Origin: an uncultured Flavobacteriales bacterium
GTDB taxonomy: Bacteria; Bacteroidota; Bacteroidia; Flavobacteriales_D; Parvicellaceae
DNA: 64,000 nucleotides
Direction of reading: 5' to 3'
Assembly: GCA_943788755.1 (NCBI GenBank)
Contig: CALSRM010000001.1
Coordinates: 496,001 to 560,000, forward strand
This document shows positions 17,532 to 28,739 of the stretch, one piece after another; the stretch's first letter is position 1; each line of letters begins with the position of its first letter. A program made the position numbers and the translations under genes. The notes under the pieces are model-generated. The model saw nothing but the letters and a program-made list of their open reading frames with translations. It searched no databases and was not told the DNA's origin.

Positions 17532-19445
17532 TTGAACAAAATAATAGCTGATCCTAAAAGCCACGATACAACGGTAGTTTTAACTTATTTTGAAATAATC
17601 AATTTTTACTATTTAAGCGATCCTGACACTGCTATAATAATCTGTAAGAAAGCAGAGAAGATAAGTGAGAAATTGAACTATCTCTTTGGTAAGTCTGAAA
17701 GTTATGCTTGGTTGGGTTATCTAAATCAAGGAAAAGGGAATATCAAATTATCTCTCAAGTATAGTAATAAAAGTTTGATAAATTTTAAAGAAATTGGAGA
17801 TAAAAAAGCAATATCAACAGCTCTTAGCAACATTGGATATATTTATAAAGAACAAGGAATACTAGAAGAAGCCCTAGATTATTACAATCGCAGTATTAAA
17901 ATAAAAAAAGAAGTAGGAGATAAAATAGGAATAGCTTCGGCGCTGAGTAATATTGGAGATATATACGAAAAGCAAGGAAAAACAAAAGAGTCCTTAGATT
18001 ATCATCATCGCAGTCTTAGAATAGATGAAGAACTCGGTGATAAAAAAGGAATAGCTACCTCTCTAACTAGAATAGGAATAATATACTATAATCAAGGCAA
18101 GATAATAGATGCTTTTGATTATTATAACCGGAGCCTTACTATTCAAATAGAGATAGGAGACAAGAAAGGAATAGCAATCTCCCTTAACAACATCGGAATT
18201 ATTCACAATGATCAAGGCGAGTTAATGGAAGCCATAGAATATGGCCAAAAAAGTTTAACCATTTCAGAAGAAATAGGTTTTCCAGATAATATAAGTCAAG
18301 CGTCAAGCTTATTAAGTGAAGTTTATCAAAAACAAGGTAAAGGAATGAAAGCCCTTGAAATGTACAAACTTTATATTCAAATGCATGATAGTATTTACAA
18401 TGAAGATATTATAAAAGCAGCGAAACAGCAAGAATATAAGTATGCGTATGAAAAACAAAAAGCTATTGATAATGCAGAGTATGACAAACAAATAGCTATA
18501 GAAAAAGAAGAAAAAGAGAAACAGCAAATCCTAGTAGTAGCAATTGCAGTCGGATTAGGATTGGTTATTTTTTTCTTAATAATTGTATTTAATAAGTTAA
18601 AGGCAACAAGAAAACAAAAAGCTTTAATTGAACAACAGAAAGCAGAAGTAGAACAACAGAAAGAAGTTGTAGAATTGGCACACTATGAGTTAGAAGAAAA
18701 GAATCAAGAAATATTGGATTCTATACTTTATGCTAAACGTATTCAATCCGCCATATTACCTCAACTGAAAGTGGTAAAACAATACTTAAAGGAAAGCTTT
18801 ATATTATACAAGCCAAAAGACGTTGTAGCAGGAGATTTTTATTGGATGGAACAGAAGAATGGTAAAGTATTGTTTGCAGCCGCAGATTGCACAGGACATG
18901 GTGTACCTGGAGCTATGGTCTCAGTAGTTTGTAATAACGGACTAAACAGAAGTGTGAGGGAACATGGTTTAACAATTCCTGGGAAAATATTAGATAAAAC
19001 CCGTGAAATAGTTGTAAAAGAATTTAAGAAATCAGAAGAAGATGTAAAAGATGGTATGGACATCGCTTTATGCAGTATTAAAGGTATGAAACTACAATAC
19101 GCCGGAGCTTATAATCCGTTATGGATCATAAGAAATGGTGATATTATTGAAACCAAAGCAAATAAACAGCCTATCGGTCAGTTTGATAATCCTGAACCCT
19201 ATACAACACATAGTTTTGATTTAGAAAAAGGAGATGCTATTTACATCTTCTCAGATGGCTATGTAGATCAGTTTGGTGGTGAAAGGGGCAAGAAATTCAA
19301 AGCTAAAGCCTTTAGAGAATTGCTGCTAAGCATTCAGGATAAACCTATGGAAGAACAAAAGAAAACCATTGATGAAACCTTTGAAACTTGGAAAGGTGAC
19401 TTAGAGCAAATTGATGATGTTTGTGTTATTGGGGTTAAAGTTTAA
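17532..19445 (+). CDS. TPR - transmembrane - coiled coil - SpoIIE/PP2C-type serine phosphatase; N-terminus likely from about 17442
   Basis: TPR repeats (KGIATSLTRIGIIYYNQGK..), TM (VVAIAVGLGLVIFFLIIVF), KDVVAGDFYWMEQ...AAADCTGHGVPGAMVS SpoIIE phosphatase motifs. In-frame signal-peptide-like IKNIIYIILFLISFQGFSQ upstream of the called TTG. Confidence 0.88.
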   Translation: MNKIIADPKSHDTTVVLTYFEIINFYYLSDPDTAIIICKKAEKISEKLNYLFGKSESYAWLGYLNQGKGNIKLSLKYSNKSLINFKEIGDKKAISTALSNIGYIYKEQGILEEALDYYNRSIKIKKEVGDKIGIASALSNIGDIYEKQGKTKESLDYHHRSLRIDEELGDKKGIATSLTRIGIIYYNQGKIIDAFDYYNRSLTIQIEIGDKKGIAISLNNIGIIHNDQGELMEAIEYGQKSLTISEEIGFPDNISQASSLLSEVYQKQGKGMKALEMYKLYIQMHDSIYNEDIIKAAKQQEYKYAYEKQKAIDNAEYDKQIAIEKEEKEKQQILVVAIAVGLGLVIFFLIIVFNKLKATRKQKALIEQQKAEVEQQKEVVELAHYELEEKNQEILDSILYAKRIQSAILPQLKVVKQYLKESFILYKPKDVVAGDFYWMEQKNGKVLFAAADCTGHGVPGAMVSVVCNNGLNRSVREHGLTIPGKILDKTREIVVKEFKKSEEDVKDGMDIALCSIKGMKLQYAGAYNPLWIIRNGDIIETKANKQPIGQFDNPEPYTTHSFDLEKGDAIYIFSDGYVDQFGGERGKKFKAKAFRELLLSIQDKPMEEQKKTIDETFETWKGDLEQIDDVCVIGVKV

Positions 19446-19536: not shown

Positions 19537-21578
19537 ATGAAGCCCATCATCTACATATCATTATTTCTTATCTCATTTAATGGAGTTTCCCAAATTTTTA
19601 GTGACGCGCAACTTTACCAAATAGATAGTTTAAACGCTGTTATTAATAATCCTAATAGCCATGATACCTCTTTAGCTGAATCATATTTGGTATTATCAGA
19701 AATTCTCTACATTTCAAATATTGACACGCTAAAATATTTATGTGAAAAATCAGAACTTATTGCCGAAAAATCACTTTTAAAAAATAATTCAGACAAAGTT
19801 CAGAAAAGCCTGAGAGAATCTTTAGCAAGAGCGCTAAACAACATAGGATATATAAACTATAGCAAAGGTAAAATAATAGAAGCCTTGGACTATTTCAGTC
19901 ATAGTCTTAAAATACAGGAGGAATTAGGTAATAAATCAGGAATAGCCAATTCTTTTAACAACATAGGAGTTATCTACTATGACCAAGGCCAATTAAATGA
20001 AGCTATAGATTATTATAGTCGCAGTCTTAAAATCTATGAAGAAATAGGCAATAAAGAGGGGGCAGCCTCTTCTCTAAACAACATAGGAGCTATGCATATT
20101 GTTCAAGAACAACTAATAGAAGCCTTGGATTATTTCAGTCGTAGTCTTAAAATAGAAGAAGAAATTGGTGATAGATCAGGAATTGCTAACTCTCTGACCA
20201 ACCTAGGGTCAATATACCTGCGCCAAGAAGAAATTGAAAAAGCTCTAATTTATTACAGTCGTAGTCTTAAAATACAAGAAGAAATTGGTGATAAATCAGG
20301 AATTGCTTCATCTTTAAACAACATAGGGACAATATACAAAAAACAAGGCAAACTTCTGGAGGCATTAGAATACGGACTAAAAAGTTTAACCATTTCCCAA
20401 GAAATAGGATCTCCGCTTAGGATAAGGCAAGCTTCTAGGTTATTAAGTATTATATATGAAAAACAAGGTAAAGGAATGAAAGCCTTTGAAATGTATAAGC
20501 TATCCATTCTTATGCGAGATAGCATTAGTAATAAAGAAACGCAACATGCAGTTGTTCAGCAACAAGCTTTATACGAGAATGAAAAAAATAAGACGATTGA
20601 TGATGCTGAGCATGATAAGGTATTAGCTATAGAACAAGAAAAAAAAGCAAAACAAGAAGTAATTATCTTTTCCATAGCTGCTGGATTGTGTTTGGTAGCT
20701 ATATTCTTAGTCTTTATGCTGAGCAGGTTGAAAGTAACAAGAAAGCAGAAATATATAATTGAGCAGCAAAAAGTAAAAGTAGAACAACAGAAAGAAGAGA
20801 CAGAATTGGCACACTATGAGCTAGAAGAAAAGAATCAAGAAATATTAGACTCTATAATTTATGCGAAGCGTATTCAATCCGCCATATTACCTCAAATGAA
20901 AGTGGTAAAAGAATACTTAAAGGAAAGCTTTATAGTATATAAACCTAAAGATGTGGTAGCAGGAGATTTCTATTGGATGGAGCAGAAGAATGATAAAGTA
21001 TTGTTTGCAGCAGCAGATTGTACTGGACACGGAGTGCCTGGAGCAATGGTTAGTGTTGTTTGTAACAATGCACTCAACAGAAGTGTTAGAGAACATGGAT
21101 TAACAGATCCAGGAGAAATCCTTAACAAAACAAGAGAAATTGTTGTTGCAGAGTTTGAGAAGTCTGAAGAAGAAGTTAAGGATGGTATGGATATAGCAAT
21201 CTGTTCATTAGAAGGAATGAAATTGCAATATGCAGGAGCACACAATCCTTTATGGATCATTAGAAATGGTGAGATTATAGAAACGAAAGCCAATAAACAG
21301 CCTATCGGTCAGTTTGAAAACCCGGTGACCCTATACAACGCATAGTTTTGATTTAGAAAAAGGAGATGCTATTTACATCTTCTCAGATGGCTATGTAGAT
21401 CAGTTTGGTGGTGAAAGGGGTAAGAAATTTAAAGCAAAAGCCTTTAGAGAATTGCTGCTAAGCATTCAAGATAAAGCCTATGGAAGAACAAAAGAAAACC
21501 ATTGATGAAACCTTTGAAACTTGGAAAGGCGACTTAGAGCAAATTGATGATGTTTGTGTTATTGGGGTTAGGGTTTAA
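19537..21578 (+). pseudogene. Second TPR - TM - SpoIIE/PP2C phosphatase paralogue, disrupted by two apparent +1 frameshifts near the C-terminus
   Basis: Intact 602-aa ORF to 21345. Compared with the paralogue, extra bases occur in cccggtgaccctat (about 21325) and in gataaagcctatgg (about 21475); the paralogue-like frame resumes to TAA at 21576-21578. Confidence 0.75.
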
Positions 21579-21668
21579 AACAAAGCAATCATTTTGATGT
21601 GGCCAATTGAAGAACAAAATAGTTGCCATATTTTTATTTATTATAATAATTATTAAATTATTTTTCTA

Positions 21669-21676
21669 TAGATTTG
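21669..21676 (+). promoter_or_regulatory. Putative his operon -7 element TAGATTTG (Bacteroidota TAnnTTTG)
   Basis: Exact match to TAnnTTTG, 16 nt upstream of the leader-peptide ATG; no clear -33 TTG seen. Confidence 0.45.
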
Positions 21677-21691
21677 TATCAAGATTATAAA

Positions 21692-21754
21692 ATGAATTTA
21701 AAGAAATTACATCATCATCATTTTTACAATTGCTCTCAGGCAAGTGGAAAATGA
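21692..21754 (+). CDS. hisL: Histidine leader peptide MNLKKLHHHHFYNCSQASGK
   Basis: ATG AAT TTA AAG AAA TTA CAT CAT CAT CAT TTT TAC AAT TGC TCT CAG GCA AGT GGA AAA TGA immediately upstream of hisG; followed by a strong terminator. Confidence 0.85.
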   Translation: MNLKKLHHHHFYNCSQASGK

Positions 21755-21779
21755 TATATGTATAGTTAATATATTTCAA

Positions 21780-21816
21780 AACCCGTCTGAGTAAATCAGG
21801 CGGGTTTTTTGTTTTA
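21780..21816 (+). terminator. Intrinsic terminator of the his attenuator
   Basis: AACCCGTCTGA-gtaaa-TCAGGCGGGTT (11 bp, one G.U) followed by TTTTGTTTT, between the leader peptide and hisG. Confidence 0.9.
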
Positions 21817-21859
21817 ATCAATCCGTTCAAAGGTTTACTCAGATCACAAAACATAAAAA

Positions 21860-22717
21860 ATGAGTAAACTAAAAATTGCAATACAAAAAAGTGGAAGACT
21901 AAATCAAGACTCTCTCCAACTATTAAAAGATTGTGGTATTTCTATTGATAACGGTAAGGATCAACTAAAGGTAACTGCACCAAATTTTCCTCTAGAGATT
22001 TTATACTTAAGAAATGCTGATATCCCACAATATCTAGAAGACGGGGTTGTGGATGTTGCTATTATTGGAGAAAACCTTCTAATTGAAAAACAGAAAAATA
22101 TTGAGATAATTCAAAGGTTAGGATTTTCTAAATGCAGAGTTTCATTGGCCATTCCAAAAGAAATTGAGTATGATTCAATAACTTATTTTGAAGGAAAAAA
22201 AATAGCAACTTCTTATCCAAATACACTTCTAAATTTCTTAAACAAAAATCAGGTCAATGCTGAAATACATGCTATTTCAGGTTCGGTTGAAATTGCCCCA
22301 AATATTGGTCTTGCAGATGGTATTTGCGATATTGTAAGTTCTGGAAGTACATTATTTAAAAATGGATTAAAAGAAATTCAAGTAATGTTAAGGTCAGAAG
22401 CTGTATTGGCAAAGTCTCCAAATATTGGGCTCAAACAAAAAGAAATACTAGATAAATTACTTTTTAGAATGAAAGCTGTTCTGAAGGCGAAAAACACCAA
22501 ATATATTTTAATGAACCTTCCAAACACGAAAATTGAAGAGGTGAGTAGAATATTACCTGTTTTAAAAAGCCCTACGGTTCTTCCATTAGCAAAAGAAGGA
22601 TGGAGTTCATTACACAGCGTAATAGACGAAACCAAATTTTGGGATGTAATAGATGAATTAAAAAATGCGGGAGCAGAAGGAATTTTAATTGTTCCCATAG
22701 ATAAAATGGTATCGTAA
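21860..22717 (+). CDS. hisG: ATP phosphoribosyltransferase
   Basis: LKIAIQKSGRLNQDS...DGICDIVSSGSTL; first gene of the his operon. Confidence 0.97.
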   Translation: MSKLKIAIQKSGRLNQDSLQLLKDCGISIDNGKDQLKVTAPNFPLEILYLRNADIPQYLEDGVVDVAIIGENLLIEKQKNIEIIQRLGFSKCRVSLAIPKEIEYDSITYFEGKKIATSYPNTLLNFLNKNQVNAEIHAISGSVEIAPNIGLADGICDIVSSGSTLFKNGLKEIQVMLRSEAVLAKSPNIGLKQKEILDKLLFRMKAVLKAKNTKYILMNLPNTKIEEVSRILPVLKSPTVLPLAKEGWSSLHSVIDETKFWDVIDELKNAGAEGILIVPIDKMVS

Positions 22718-23997
22718 TGGAATTATTTAAGAATATTAAACAAAAAGATTGGTCCACAATGGTTAGTCGACCAACTATTGATAAAGAACAGCTGGATCAG
22801 ATTGTAAACACAATATTAAAAAATGTTAAAGAAGATGGAGACAATGCGTTAAGAGCTTATACACAGAAATTTGACAATGTAGATTTAGCTGAATTTTTAG
22901 TTTCAGAAGCAGAAATACAAAAAGCAAAAAAACTTGTTTCAAAAGAACTTATGCAAGCTATCAATATAGCTAAACAGAATATTGAAAAATTTCATAAATC
23001 TCAATTCATAGATGAGAAGGTTATAGAAACCTCTGTTGGTGTAGAATGTTGGAGAAAATCAGTTGCTATTGAAAAAGTTGGACTATACATTCCAGGAGGC
23101 TCGGCACCCTTATTCTCAACAGTACTAATGCTTGGTGTTCCAGCTAAATTAGCTAATTGCGAAGAGGTTGTATTGTGCACACCATCTAACGATCAAGGAG
23201 AAATAAATCCAGCAATATTGTATACAGCTAACTTAATTGGTATTACTAAGATATATAAAGTAGGGGGAGCTCAAGCAGTCGCGGCTATGGCGTATGGAAC
23301 TGAAACAATTCCACAAGTTTATAAAATTTTTGGACCCGGTAATCAATTTGTAACTAAAGCCAAAGAGTTAGTTCAACAAAGTGGGATTAGTATAGATATG
23401 CCAGCAGGACCAAGTGAAGTATTAGTTATTGCGGATAAAACTGGGAATCCAGAATACATTGCTGCCGATTTATTGTCTCAAGCTGAACATGGCGCAGACA
23501 GTCAAGTAATTTTACTATCGGACTGCGAAAATATTTTGACACAAACCTTAATTCAATTAGAGAAACAAGTTCTTTTATTACCTAGATCTGAAACGGCAAA
23601 AAAAGCCTTATCCAATAGTAAAGCCTTTCTTTTAAATAATATGGAAGACTGTATGGACTTTAGCAATCTCTATGCACCAGAACACCTAATTATAGCTTCA
23701 AACGATGCTTCCAAATATATTGATAAGGTAATTAATGCAGGTTCTGTGTTTCTGGGTAACTACAGTTGTGAGAGTGCTGGAGATTACGCTAGCGGAACTA
23801 ATCATACCTTGCCAACTAATGGATACGCTAGAAATTACAGTGGTGTTTCCTTAGATAGTTTTCAAAAGAAAATCACTTTTCAAAAAATAAGCAAAGAAGG
23901 AATTCAAGCAATTGGACCTTCAATTGAAATAATGGCAGAATCAGAGCAATTATTTGCGCACAAAAATGCCGTAACTCTCAGATTAAAAGATGTATAA
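22717..23997 (+). CDS. hisD: histidinol dehydrogenase
   Basis: VGLYIPGGSAPLFSTVLM, GPGNQFVTKAK, GPSEVLVIAD. Confidence 0.98.
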   Translation: MELFKNIKQKDWSTMVSRPTIDKEQLDQIVNTILKNVKEDGDNALRAYTQKFDNVDLAEFLVSEAEIQKAKKLVSKELMQAINIAKQNIEKFHKSQFIDEKVIETSVGVECWRKSVAIEKVGLYIPGGSAPLFSTVLMLGVPAKLANCEEVVLCTPSNDQGEINPAILYTANLIGITKIYKVGGAQAVAAMAYGTETIPQVYKIFGPGNQFVTKAKELVQQSGISIDMPAGPSEVLVIADKTGNPEYIAADLLSQAEHGADSQVILLSDCENILTQTLIQLEKQVLLLPRSETAKKALSNSKAFLLNNMEDCMDFSNLYAPEHLIIASNDASKYIDKVINAGSVFLGNYSCESAGDYASGTNHTLPTNGYARNYSGVSLDSFQKKITFQKISKEGIQAIGPSIEIMAESEQLFAHKNAVTLRLKDV

Positions 23998-25024
23998 AAT
24001 GTTTAAATTAGAAAATATAATTCGAAAAAACATAATTGACTTAACTCCCTATTCATCGGCAAGAGAAGAATTTAAGGAAGAGGCAACTATCTTGCTGGAT
24101 GCAAATGAAAATCCATTTGAAACAGCACTCAATCGCTATCCTGATCCTTTTCAAACAGCATTGAAACAAGAACTTTCAATTATCAAAAGAGTAGAAACCA
24201 ATCAGATTTTTGTTGGAAATGGCAGCGATGAAGCTATAGATCTTTTATTTAGAGCTTTTTGCGAGCCAGGGAAGGATAAGTCGTATGTTTTTCCTCCCAC
24301 ATACGGAATGTATGAAGTGTCAGCAAAAATCAACAATATTGAAACTGTTAAGATCAACCTAAAGCCAGATTTTCAACTCCCTGATAAAAGCGATTTTATT
24401 GAAAAAATAGATTCTGCCGGTTTACTTTTTATATGTTCACCTAACAACCCAACAGGAAATACTTATCCTTTAAATGCTATAAACGAAATAGCATCTGCGT
24501 TTTCAGGTTTAGTAATTGTTGATGAAGCATATATTGATTTCTCAAGTTCAGAAAGTGCCATTTCGTTGCTCAGCGAATTACCTAATCTAGTTGTGCTCAA
24601 TACCTTAAGTAAGGCTTATGGTTTAGCTGGATTACGCTTAGGGATGGCTTTTGCAAGTAAAGAGGTTATTGCTGTACTTAATAAAATAAAACCGCCATAC
24701 AATGTGAATTCAATTAGTCAGATTGAAGGGCTAAAAGCTTTAAAGAACACTAAGAAATTTTTGAGCCAAATTGATGTATTAAAATCAGAAAGAAATTTAT
24801 TGACTAAGGCTTTGTCTGCAATTCCTTCTGTAATTAAGGTTTATCCATCAGAGGCTAACTTTTTACTTATTGAATTTGACCAATCAGATAAAATATTTGT
24901 TTCATTGAAATCTAAAGGTATTATAGTTAGAAACCGAACAAGGGATGTTAAAAACTGCTTAAGAATTACGGTTGGCACTCCACAACAAAATAGAATATTA
25001 ATCAAGGCTATTAAAGAGATTTAA
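23990..25024 (+). CDS. hisC: histidinol-phosphate aminotransferase
   Basis: [29 protein letters not shown]. Confidence 0.97.
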
Positions 25025-25026
25025 CG

Positions 25027-26115
25027 ATGAAAAAAGTATTATTTATAGATCGAGATGGAACATTGGTTATAGAACCACCATTAGACTATCAATTAGATAG
25101 TTTAGAAAAACTAGAGTATTATCCTGGAGTATTTCAGGGTCTTTCCAAAATTGTTGATGAACTAGATTATGAATTGGTAATGGTTACCAATCAAGATGGA
25201 TTAGGAACGAGTTCGTTTCCTGAGGATACTTTTTGGCCAGCGCATAACAAGATGCTTCAAGCTTTCAAAAATGAAGGTATTGAATTCAGTGAAATTTTAA
25301 TTGATAGAAGCTTTGCTGAAGAGAATGCTCCAACCAGAAAGCCAAATACAGGATTGTTAAACAAATATATTTTTGGCGATTATGACCTAGAAAACTCTTA
25401 TGTAGTTGGTGATAGAGCAACGGATATCGAATTAGCTAAAAATCTAAAAAGTAAAAGTGTTTTTATTGGAGATAGTAATGAAATGGCTACGTTGTCTACT
25501 ACTAATTGGAATGAAATCTACCAATTCTTAAAAGCAATCCCACGGAAGGTTGAAATCAATAGAAAAACTAAAGAAACGGATATAAAAGTAGAATTAAACT
25601 TGGATGGAAGTGGAAAAGGGTCTTTCAGCACTGGAATAGGTTTTTTTGACCACATGTTGGAACAAATTTCTAAACATGGAAATATAGATTTAAATATAGA
25701 TGTAAAAGGAGATTTAGAGATTGATGAGCACCATACTATAGAGGATGTTGCGCTTACTTTAGGAGATGCATTCTTACAGGCTTTAGGTTCTAAAAAAGGA
25801 ATTGAACGGTATGGCTTCCTGCTGCCTATGGATGAATGTTTAGCTCAGGTTGCAATTGATTTCGGAGGTAGGCCTTGGCTAGTTTGGGAGGCCAATTTTG
25901 AAAGAGAAATGATTGGAGAAATGCCTACTGAAATGTTTATGCACTTTTTTAAATCGTTTACGGATGCTGCAAAATGTAATTTGAATATTAAAGCAGAGGG
26001 CGAAAATGAACACCACAAAATAGAAGCAATATTTAAAGCTTTTGCAAAAGCAATTAAAATGGCTAAGATGAAAACAGAAAATTATTCAATACCTAGTACA
26101 AAAGGCATATTATGA
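25027..26115 (+). CDS. hisB: bifunctional histidinol-phosphatase/imidazoleglycerol-phosphate dehydratase
   Basis: N-terminal HAD motif [14 protein letters not shown]-terminal [20 protein letters not shown]. Confidence 0.98.
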
Positions 26116-26690
26116 TTGCAATTATAAAATACAATGCAGGAAATATTAGTTCGGTGAAGAATGCACTAACTCGCTTGGGCTATGAAAGCATAATCACTAG
26201 CGATTCAGAGGAGATATTAAATGCCGACAAGGTTATTTTTCCGGGAGTAGGTCAAGCTAGTTCAGCTATGAAATACTTAAATGAACGCAACTTAGATAAG
26301 ACAATTTTATCCATTAAAAAGCCAATGCTTGGAATTTGCTTAGGTCAGCAGTTAATGTGCGCGTATTCTGAAGAAGGAAGTACCCAATGTTTAGGGATTT
26401 TTAACACAAAAGTGAAGAAATTCCCTAATACAGAATTGGTTCCTCATATGGGCTGGAATAACTTCTCTAAAGTAAAAGGCGAACTTTTTAATGGTTTAGA
26501 GAATACCAATAACGTTTATTTTGTCCACAGTTATTATGCAGAGGTAAATGAGCAAACAACTGCAGTTTGCGATTATATAAAACCTTTTAGTGCAGCAATG
26601 CAAAAAGATAATTTTTATGCAACTCAATTTCATCCAGAGAAATCGGCTGATATTGGTGAACAAATACTTAAAAACTTTCTGGACTTATGA
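26112..26690 (+). CDS. hisH: imidazole glycerol phosphate synthase subunit HisH
   Basis: [12 protein letters not shown] class I amidotransferase, FHPEKS. Confidence 0.98.
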
Positions 26691-27400
26691 GAATTATACC
26701 GGCAATAGATATAATAGATGGTAACTGCGTGCGGCTTTCTAAAGGAGATTACAGCACTAAAAAAGTCTACAATGAAAACCCATTAGAAGTAGCTAAAGAA
26801 TTTGAAGATAATGGTGTTAAATTCTTACATGTAGTAGATTTAGATGGAGCAAAATCGAAACATATTGTGAATTATAAAATACTTGAGTTAATTGCATCTA
26901 AAACGAATCTTCAAATAGATTTTGGCGGAGGCATAAAAACAAATAAAGATGTTGAAATTGCTTTTAACAGTGGTGCTTCACAAATTACAGGAGGCAGCAT
27001 AGCGGCTACTAATTCAAATTTGTTTTTGCAGTGGTTGGATAGATATGGCTCTGATAAAATCATTTTAGGTGCAGATTGCAGTAATCGGAAAATTTCAACG
27101 AATGGATGGTTGGAAAAATCTGATATTGATGTTGTTTATTTCATCAAAGAGTACGAATCAAAAGGGGTAAAGAATGTTATCTGCACAGATATAGCTAAAG
27201 ATGGAATGTTGGAAGGCACCTCTAATCAACTTTATAAAGAAATTATGAGCGATTCCTCTGTTAATTTGATTGCAAGCGGTGGAGTATCGAGCATGGATGA
27301 TTTATATCAACTTATCGAATTGGGGTGTGAAGGTGCTATTTTGGGTAAAGCCATATATGAAGGAAAGATAACATTAAAACAACTGCAAGAATTATGTTAA
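26687..27400 (+). CDS. hisA: phosphoribosylformimino-5-aminoimidazole carboxamide ribotide isomerase
   Basis: [21 protein letters not shown]; operon context. Confidence 0.98.
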
Positions 27401-28146
27401 AAAAGAGAATTATACCCTGCCTAGATATTAAAGATGGTAGAACTGTCAAAGGAATTAATTTCGTAGGAATTAGAGATGCAGGAGATCCAATTGAATTAGC
27501 AAAAAATTATGTAAAACAAGGTGCGGATGAACTGGTGTTTTTAGACATAACCGCAACAATAGAGAATCGATCCACTTTAATTGATTTGGTGAAAAGAATC
27601 GCCAAAGAAATTAATATTCCATTTACTGTTGGTGGAGGGATATCCTCTGTTGAAGATGTGAGCAAATTAATAGAAGCCGGAGCTGATAAAGTAAGTATAA
27701 ATTCCTCAGCGGTAAAGCGACCTGAATTAATTACGGAAATAGCAGAGAAATTTGGTAGTCAGTGTGTAGTAGTTGCTATTGACACTAAGTATGAAAATTC
27801 TGAGTGGAAGGTATTTGTAAATGGAGGAAGAAAGTTTACAGGTTTAAATACAGTTGAATGGGCTCAGCAAGTTGAAGAGAAAGGAGCAGGCGAAATCCTT
27901 TTGACCTCAATGAATAATGATGGTACAAAAGCAGGATTTGCTATTGATATTACAAATGACGTGAGCTCTGTCGTAAATTTACCCGTTATTGCTTCAGGAG
28001 GAGCGGGACTGAAAGAACACTTTAAAAATGTATTTGAAAAGACAAAAGCAACTGGAGGATTAGCAGCAAGTATTTTTCATTACGGAACAATACCAATTCC
28101 AGAATTAAAGAATTACTTAAAAGAGCAAAAAATAGCAATACGATAG
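27394..28146 (+). CDS. hisF: imidazole glycerol phosphate synthase subunit HisF
   Basis: [21 protein letters not shown]. Confidence 0.98.
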
Positions 28147-28148
28147 AT

Positions 28149-28739
28149 ATGAAAATAGATTTCAATAAAGAGGATAATGGTTTGGTACCAGTAATAGTGC
28201 AAAACAACAACACCTTACAAGTTTTAATGTTAGGATACATGAACGATATAGCTTTTCTTAAAACACAAAAAGAAAGACGTGTGACCTTCTTTAGTAGAAG
28301 TAAAAACAGGCTATGGACCAAGGGGGAGGAGTCCGGGAATTTCTTAAACGTTAATGACATCCAAATTGACTGTGACAATGACACTATTTTAATTAAAGTA
28401 ACACCTTTAGGTCCAACATGCCATAAAGGATCAACTTCTTGTTTTAGTGAAGAAACAGCTAAAGGCTTTGTCTATGAACTAGAAGAAACCATAAACCAGC
28501 GAATTGATGAAAATGATGAAAATTCTTATACGAATCAATTGTTTAGAAGAGGAATTAATAAAGTAGCCCAAAAAGTAGGAGAGGAAGCTGTAGAATTAGT
28601 TATTGAAGCAAAAGATGATGATGAAAACCTTTTTAAAAATGAGGCTGCAGATCTTATGTATCACTATCTCATCCTTCTGAAAGCAAAGGGATTTAAACTG
28701 ATAGATGTCGAAAATATTTTAAAAGATAGGGCTAAGTAA
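28149..28739 (+). CDS. hisIE: bifunctional phosphoribosyl-AMP cyclohydrolase/phosphoribosyl-ATP pyrophosphatase
   Basis: VTFFSRSKNRLWTKGEESGNFL plus C-terminal KVGEEAVELVIEAK. Confidence 0.97.
   Translation: MKIDFNKEDNGLVPVIVQNNNTLQVLMLGYMNDIAFLKTQKERRVTFFSRSKNRLWTKGEESGNFLNVNDIQIDCDNDTILIKVTPLGPTCHKGSTSCFSEETAKGFVYELEETINQRIDENDENSYTNQLFRRGINKVAQKVGEEAVELVIEAKDDDENLFKNEAADLMYHYLILLKAKGFKLIDVENILKDRAK

Follow-up and report, generated by a model that had tools for sequence, protein, structure and literature searches.

A histidine operon attenuator in Flavobacteriales with a predicted translational lock at the hisG start codon

The DNA directly before the his genes in this flavobacterial genome is a true leader-peptide switch of the classical kind that senses histidine, and we place a probability of roughly two in three on the reading that a ribosome-mediated his attenuator is combined here with a translational lock and that both layers share one switch strand. 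Sequence comparison among relatives demonstrated the leader ORF along with four helices (2:3, 3:4, 3:5 and 5:6). The transcriptional attenuation layer is strongly supported by these comparisons together with folding models, and a translational layer, weak in some clades, is predicted from the same two sources. The element is larger than was first described in an earlier note on this DNA, and the coupling of a his attenuator to a translational lock probably makes it a new variant. The features identified in the window (the whole stretch of 64,000 nucleotides that was analysed) are listed in Table 1.

Table 1. Features of the his leader and operon, in positions of the window.
Feature	Position	Strand	Basis
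Predicted Bacteroidota -7-type promoter box (TAnnTTTG), TAGATTTG	21669..21676	+	
Leader peptide ORF (hisL-like), 20 codons, MNLKKLHHHHFYNCSQASGK and stop	21692..21754	+	Sequence check; homologues in relatives
1:2 protector hairpin, His codons with AATGATATATGTA around/after the stop codon	21708..21762	+	MFE, centroid
His control codons, four CAT in a row	21710..21721	+	
Segment 2, CTCAGGC, antiterminator strand, within the leader ORF	21735..21741	+	2:3 covariation
Intrinsic terminator 3:4, AAAACCCGTCTGA gtaaa TCAGGCGGGTTTT, then T run	21778..21808	+	Folding, covariation
Segment 3, GTCTGAGTAAATC, switch strand; possible partners are segments 2, 4 and 5	21785..21797	+	
Segment 5, GGTTTACTCAGAT, pairs with segment 3 or the hisG start (segment 6)	21832..21844	+	
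hisG, ATP phosphoribosyltransferase, long form	21860..22717	+	TIGR00070, TIGR03455 above cut-off
Segment 6, TGAGTAAACT, hisG start codon (final two bases) through codon 4	21861..21870	+	10 bp to segment 5
hisD, hisC, bifunctional hisB, hisH, hisA, hisF, hisIE	22717..28739	+	ORFs; compact his operon

hisG opens a complete his operon, in which hisD, hisB and hisIE were named by NCBIfam, and hisC, hisH, hisA and hisF from gene order and sequence. Relatives of hisG were drawn from the same order and from GTDB genomes (110 loci), with an uncultured Flavobacteriales MAG (L077, 94%) as the closest named relative by hisG. The leader ORF and its four CAT codons lie in the sequence exactly where the earlier note had placed them, and the search it had proposed for conserved His-codon runs upstream of hisG recovered a leader ORF with a His run in 109/110 relatives, for which MNFIQLHHHHFHTCTQAS followed by a stop codon is a typical form; L044 was the sole locus that lacked one. 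A wider sample of the phylum yielded a His-rich short ORF at 97/109 further loci, a count from which the deep distribution of such leaders can be drawn approximately, since the GC-rich loci of this sample were counted without a chance control. The -7-like box of the earlier note also recurs in relatives: a TAnnTTTG motif was present within the 60 nt that precede the leader ATG at 92 of 138 loci, but in only 4 of 272 control windows. By eye, no clear -33 box could be made out ahead of the window's his leader.

Folding of positions 21692-21820 gave -35.5 kcal/mol in comparison to -18.3 +/- 3.1 kcal/mol for dinucleotide shuffles (z = -5.5, 0/200). Segment 2 starts 13 nt past the last His codon and, as the earlier note had seen, is complementary to GTCTGAG at 21785-21791 over 7 bp with one G.U pair, while the terminator that it had drawn at 21780-21806 proved to be present and followed by a T run but slightly longer, with a 13 bp stem (21778-21790 with 21796-21808) closing a GTAAA loop. 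Covariation in 2:3, 3:4 and 3:5 was assessed on an alignment of 52 leaders (A1), where the 3:4 helix was 97.4% paired with 30 double-change cells and the 2:3 helix 96.7% paired with 16 double-change cells. For 3:4, 2:3, 3:5 and the loop part of 3:5 the cells paired, the double-change cells and the covariation score were each matched by 0 of 500 shuffles, and the bases that face one column of segment 3 (C or U) in segments 2, 4 and 5 change along with it. The inner stem of the 1:2 hairpin (TTGC/GCAA), with segment 2 in its tip, was 83% paired in A1 and showed modest covariation. When the nascent transcript was folded with ribosome masking, in calculations that use approximate masks and include neither pseudoknots nor true kinetics, the probability of 2:3 was 0.98 with a ribosome at the His codons, 0.00 with one at the stop codon and 0.26 without a ribosome.

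This locus thus has a run of the operon's own amino-acid codon in a short ORF (four CAT before the his operon), an intrinsic terminator placed after the leader ORF and ahead of the first gene, and an exclusive antiterminator that, by computation, is freed at the stall and covered at the stop. The masking and the search for compensatory changes in 2:3 and 3:4 had both been put forward as checks by the earlier note, which had also made its reading depend on whether relatives preserve the His run and the alternative pairing; they preserve both. The note's interpretation as a his attenuator is therefore supported but incomplete: every part that it named is present, while segments 5 and 6 just downstream were missed and the element runs on to the hisG start codon.

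Segment 5 was first spotted through its complementarity to the top of the terminator when upstream regions were compared side by side. In the window GGTTTACTCAGAT pairs with GTCTGAGTAAATC (21832-21844 with 21785-21797) through 13 pairs including two G.U, so that segment 3 enters helix 3:5 as the terminator 5' arm plus its loop. Segment 5 ends about 12-15 nt before the hisG ATG in most loci, and Flavobacterium-like loci have a longer gap of 23-33 nt. Across 101 distinct loci the 3:5 duplex had an energy of -15.4 kcal/mol in comparison to -10.8 kcal/mol when segment 5 was swapped between loci, and for 89% of these loci the z value against shuffled downstream DNA was below -3. The 3:5 helix was 94.9% paired in the 52 sequences of A1 with double changes in 9 of 13 pairs, and its five loop pairs, which have no pair in common with 3:4 and one, the first, in common with 2:3, were 96.4% paired with double changes in all five. 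On the HisG tree, 17 double changes were counted in 3:5, where permutations, which do not correct for shared descent, gave a mean of 3.6 and a maximum of 11. The minimum free energy structure of the window transcript contained 3:4 when the transcript ended at 21820 and 3:5 when it ended at 21850.

Segment 5 is also complementary to the beginning of hisG. In the window GGUUUACUCA (21832-21841) pairs with UGAGUAAACU (21861-21870) through ten pairs including one G.U, and when the terminator was enforced on readthrough transcripts, that of the window included, segment 5 paired with the hisG start. The energy of 5:6 was -7.6 kcal/mol in comparison to -5.1 kcal/mol for permuted pairings (0/5000 permutations as low), and -7.58 in comparison to -5.31 kcal/mol for synonymous recodings of codons 2-5. 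An alignment confined to the 66 loci with an AGN second codon (A2) showed 5:6 to be 92.9% paired with 32 double-change cells (0/500 shuffles), and 14 double changes were placed on the HisG tree, where permutations, again uncorrected for shared descent, gave a mean of 4.0 and a maximum of 9. Leu codon 4 of hisG formed an A.C mismatch with segment 5 in only 2 of these 66 loci. Three-way covariation was apparent in Flavobacterium-like loci (segment 3 GAGUACA, segment 5 UGUACUC and hisG start AUGAGUACA), a hisG start reading AUGAGCAAA is accompanied by UUUGCUC and GAGCAAA at L097, and AUGAGUAU with AUACUCAU at L158 is a further example of 5:6. Strong 5:6 pairing (-6 kcal/mol or lower) was found at 67 of 105 distinct loci, the window among them. 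Clades with ACA or TCA as the second codon (the Maribacter/Muricauda and Aquimarina groups) have kept 3:5 and have a weak 5:6, from which 3:5 may have a role of its own.

Mismatches favoured G.U over A.C in both helices (115 in comparison to 27 in 3:5, and 67 in comparison to 3 in 5:6), which indicates that the pairing acts in the sense RNA. A DNA-binding palindrome was rejected as the main reading of segment 5 on the same ground. The hisG start is provided with a predicted occluding helix (5:6) and an alternative helix (3:5), which both covary and are mutually exclusive.

Two variations in the placement of segment 5 were observed. In genus g35 (L198, L251-L253) it seems to pair with hisG codons 3-6 and not with the AUG, best in L198 at -9.6 kcal/mol, and judging from sequence this is possibly an independent re-placement of the start lock. 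In L195 and L196 (f9), where the assigned start reads CTGAGCATG, the complement of segment 5 is placed immediately before the likely ATG, which would fit a shift of the hisG start codon.

These helices can be arranged into a dual-level mechanism. When His-tRNA is scarce, a ribosome would stall at the four His codons, open 1:2 and free segment 2, whose pairing with segment 3 would block the 3:4 terminator and let RNA polymerase read through; when His-tRNA is ample, the ribosome would reach the stop codon and cover segment 2, and 3:4 would form and end transcription. After readthrough, segment 5 would emerge and take segment 3 from segment 2 (13 bp in comparison to 7 bp), and with segment 5 held in 3:5 the hisG start codon would be free and hisG translated. 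In transcripts that had escaped a terminator already formed, segment 3 would stay in 3:4, and 5:6 would cover the AUG and codons 2-4 and block translation of hisG. We infer the order of folding, the blocking of the start codon in the cell and the response to histidine. A His-codon ORF together with covarying helices makes a TRAP-like protein sensor unnecessary.

The dual-layer proposal follows from the folding calculations and from the accessibility of the start site. With 3:4 excluded by an energy penalty, the probability of 3:5 was 1.00 before segment 6 was made and 0.67-0.99 afterwards, while with 3:4 allowed the probability of 5:6 was 0.85-0.92. For AGN loci, positions -3 to +12 were unpaired at 0.36 in the 3:4 state in comparison to 0.65 in the 3:5 state, forced-state energies having served for start-codon access only. 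Where 2:3 was held by a stalled ribosome, the combination of 2:3 with 5:6 still stood at 0.33 at equilibrium, so the ON state would rely partly on folding order. In Flavobacterium, where no Shine-Dalgarno sequence is used, structure around the start codon tunes initiation (PMC6847099), which makes hiding of the start codon plausible. It is fairly probable that segment 3 decides both termination and exposure of the hisG start in flavobacteria, in which case leaked transcripts would be silent and the first codons of HisG constrained.

Segment 5 was found in families f1, f8, f9, f16 and f17, as well as in certain further families of the order and one f46 MAG, and was absent from most other families sampled. 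Of 150 genomes of the order searched with a covariance model (R1), 28 contained the element, always as a single match and always immediately ahead of hisG, and an association of the element with other genes was rejected on this basis. The trp leaders of the same order lacked segment 5, and the idea that it is a general attenuator feature was discarded accordingly. Other arrangements were also encountered: seven loci (L203, L204, L205 and L221-L224, in f15, f22 and f23) have another terminator type (AAGGCTTACC...GGTAAGCCTT) with His runs and no segment 5, and L028 and L030 (G211 and G154) have very short his leaders (MFVTNTRHHLLLG and MNFTITHHHLLLG, each with a stop codon) and a terminator after which hisG shortly begins, segment 5 being absent, which offers a natural reduced version for comparison.

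A plain classical his attenuator, with the pairing of segment 5 and the hisG start as a functionless by-product (a decayed duplicate of segments 2/4, or drift), would account for histidine control, for which the transcriptional parts suffice, and would fit both the trp leaders just mentioned and the absence of segment 5 from many families of Bacteroidia (f14, f15, f18-f22) and from some close relatives, which have kept the leader, often along with the terminator. We consider this quite unlikely, as the compensatory changes and the G.U preference in 3:5 and 5:6 exceed the permutation and synonymous-codon controls. The persistence of 3:5 in clades with a weak 5:6 would be explained if 3:5 served another purpose, such as blocking re-formation of the terminator in the mRNA, stability or a polymerase pause near the hisG start, and 5:6 were secondary. 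RNA emerges from RNA polymerase at a distance close to 12-15 nt, near the usual spacing of segment 5 from the ATG, but the wider spacing of Flavobacterium-like loci departs from it and 5:6 shows covariation of its own with the codons of hisG, down to the synonymous codon used for Leu at position 4; such a role in place of the lock therefore appears unlikely.

Segment 5 is complementary to the terminator loop and upper stem in the released leader RNA as well, and trans-acting leader products are known in Sinorhizobium (PMC7298713), so that the loop (segment 3) of the released RNA might pair in trans with segment 5 of his mRNA and regulate hisG. Every his mRNA carries its own segment 3, for which reason cis pairing should win, and GGTTTACTCAGA has a single perfect copy in this genome. 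Trans targets elsewhere in the genome were likewise set aside, since single-mismatch matches to it were no commoner than for the reversed control, and we regard a trans function as highly improbable. The attenuator with a coupled translational lock is thus retained as the preferred reading.

Enterobacterial hisL (RF00514) resembles the window element in its His-run leader peptide, its mutually exclusive antiterminator and terminator and its position upstream of hisG. The window element differs in its simpler 2:3 / 3:4 layout and in the addition of segments 5 and 6 up to the hisG start, which were sought in Bacteroidota leaders only. The RF00514 His_leader model scored 25.4 bits on the window leader, below its cut-off of 49, and no Rfam family matched the window leader or eight relatives at threshold. 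Matches to PyrR, rli38, trpB and other Rfam families at E values of 0.01-10 were dismissed as lying far below the cut-offs and comprising little beyond a terminator after an AU-rich stretch. The attenuator extends classical leader-peptide control across Bacteroidota, a phylum without a matching Rfam his leader model. In the literature searched, to which the 2004 and 2010 attenuation papers did not belong, we found no Bacteroidota his attenuator with a dual layer and no description of a shared-strand start-codon lock for a ribosome-mediated attenuator. Vitreschak 2004 is said to mention attenuators in Bacteroidetes/Chlorobi.

As late as 2010, Proteobacteria and Actinobacteria were described as the only groups in which leader-peptide systems had been shown (PMC2965389). 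The earlier note had left open whether this leader was already catalogued, and beside the lack of an Rfam match a 2021 transcriptome study of F. psychrophilum reported a structured hisG 5' element that is conserved in Flavobacteriaceae and has no Rfam hit, together with clues for leader-peptide attenuation of amino-acid operons (PMC9723704). The attenuator is consequently not a first sighting; the main-text passages of that study give no mechanism and none of the 2:3, 3:5 and 5:6 helices.

The Bacteroid-trp RNA motif (RF01692, Weinberg 2010) is likewise a phylum-specific leader of an amino-acid operon but carries Trp codons, and it was not among the matches at 21600-21900. The same genome has a Bacteroid-trp-like attenuator upstream of trpE (G000:C4:27195-27316; L123, L149) with the leader MKNLKSNNYWWSAKHNVSQIG and stop, which is the sole RF01692 match in this genome (47.6 bits, cut-off 49) and which showed, on inspection by eye, nothing complementary to its terminator loop or the trpE start. 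The trp leader of B. subtilis under TRAP has the same two layers, a terminator and a hidden initiation site of the first gene on readthrough transcripts (PMC11255114). There the TRAP protein sets the state and the Shine-Dalgarno sequence is hidden, while in the his element the translating ribosome would set the state and the start codon itself would be hidden with codons 2-4. The B. subtilis anti-TRAP (rtpA) operon senses uncharged tRNA at both transcription and translation (PMC11255114); it differs, partly as a matter of general knowledge, in using a T-box and a separate leader-peptide stall and not one shared strand. The added segments of the his element suggest control of initiation without a Shine-Dalgarno sequence, through hiding of the start codon and first codons. 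If this is true, the element is a ribosome-sensing counterpart of the two-layer TRAP control of Bacillus that works by RNA alone on one shared strand, and a regulatory RNA constrains the first codons of an enzyme.

Just before the predicted his promoter lie two tandem genes for TPR and SpoIIE-like phosphatase proteins, named from sequence (17532-19445, 19537-21345 and 21346-21579). The second copy stops early (NPVTLYNA, then stop) and its missing C-terminal end follows in broken frames, which suggests a duplicate that is frameshifted or decaying, or else a sequencing error.
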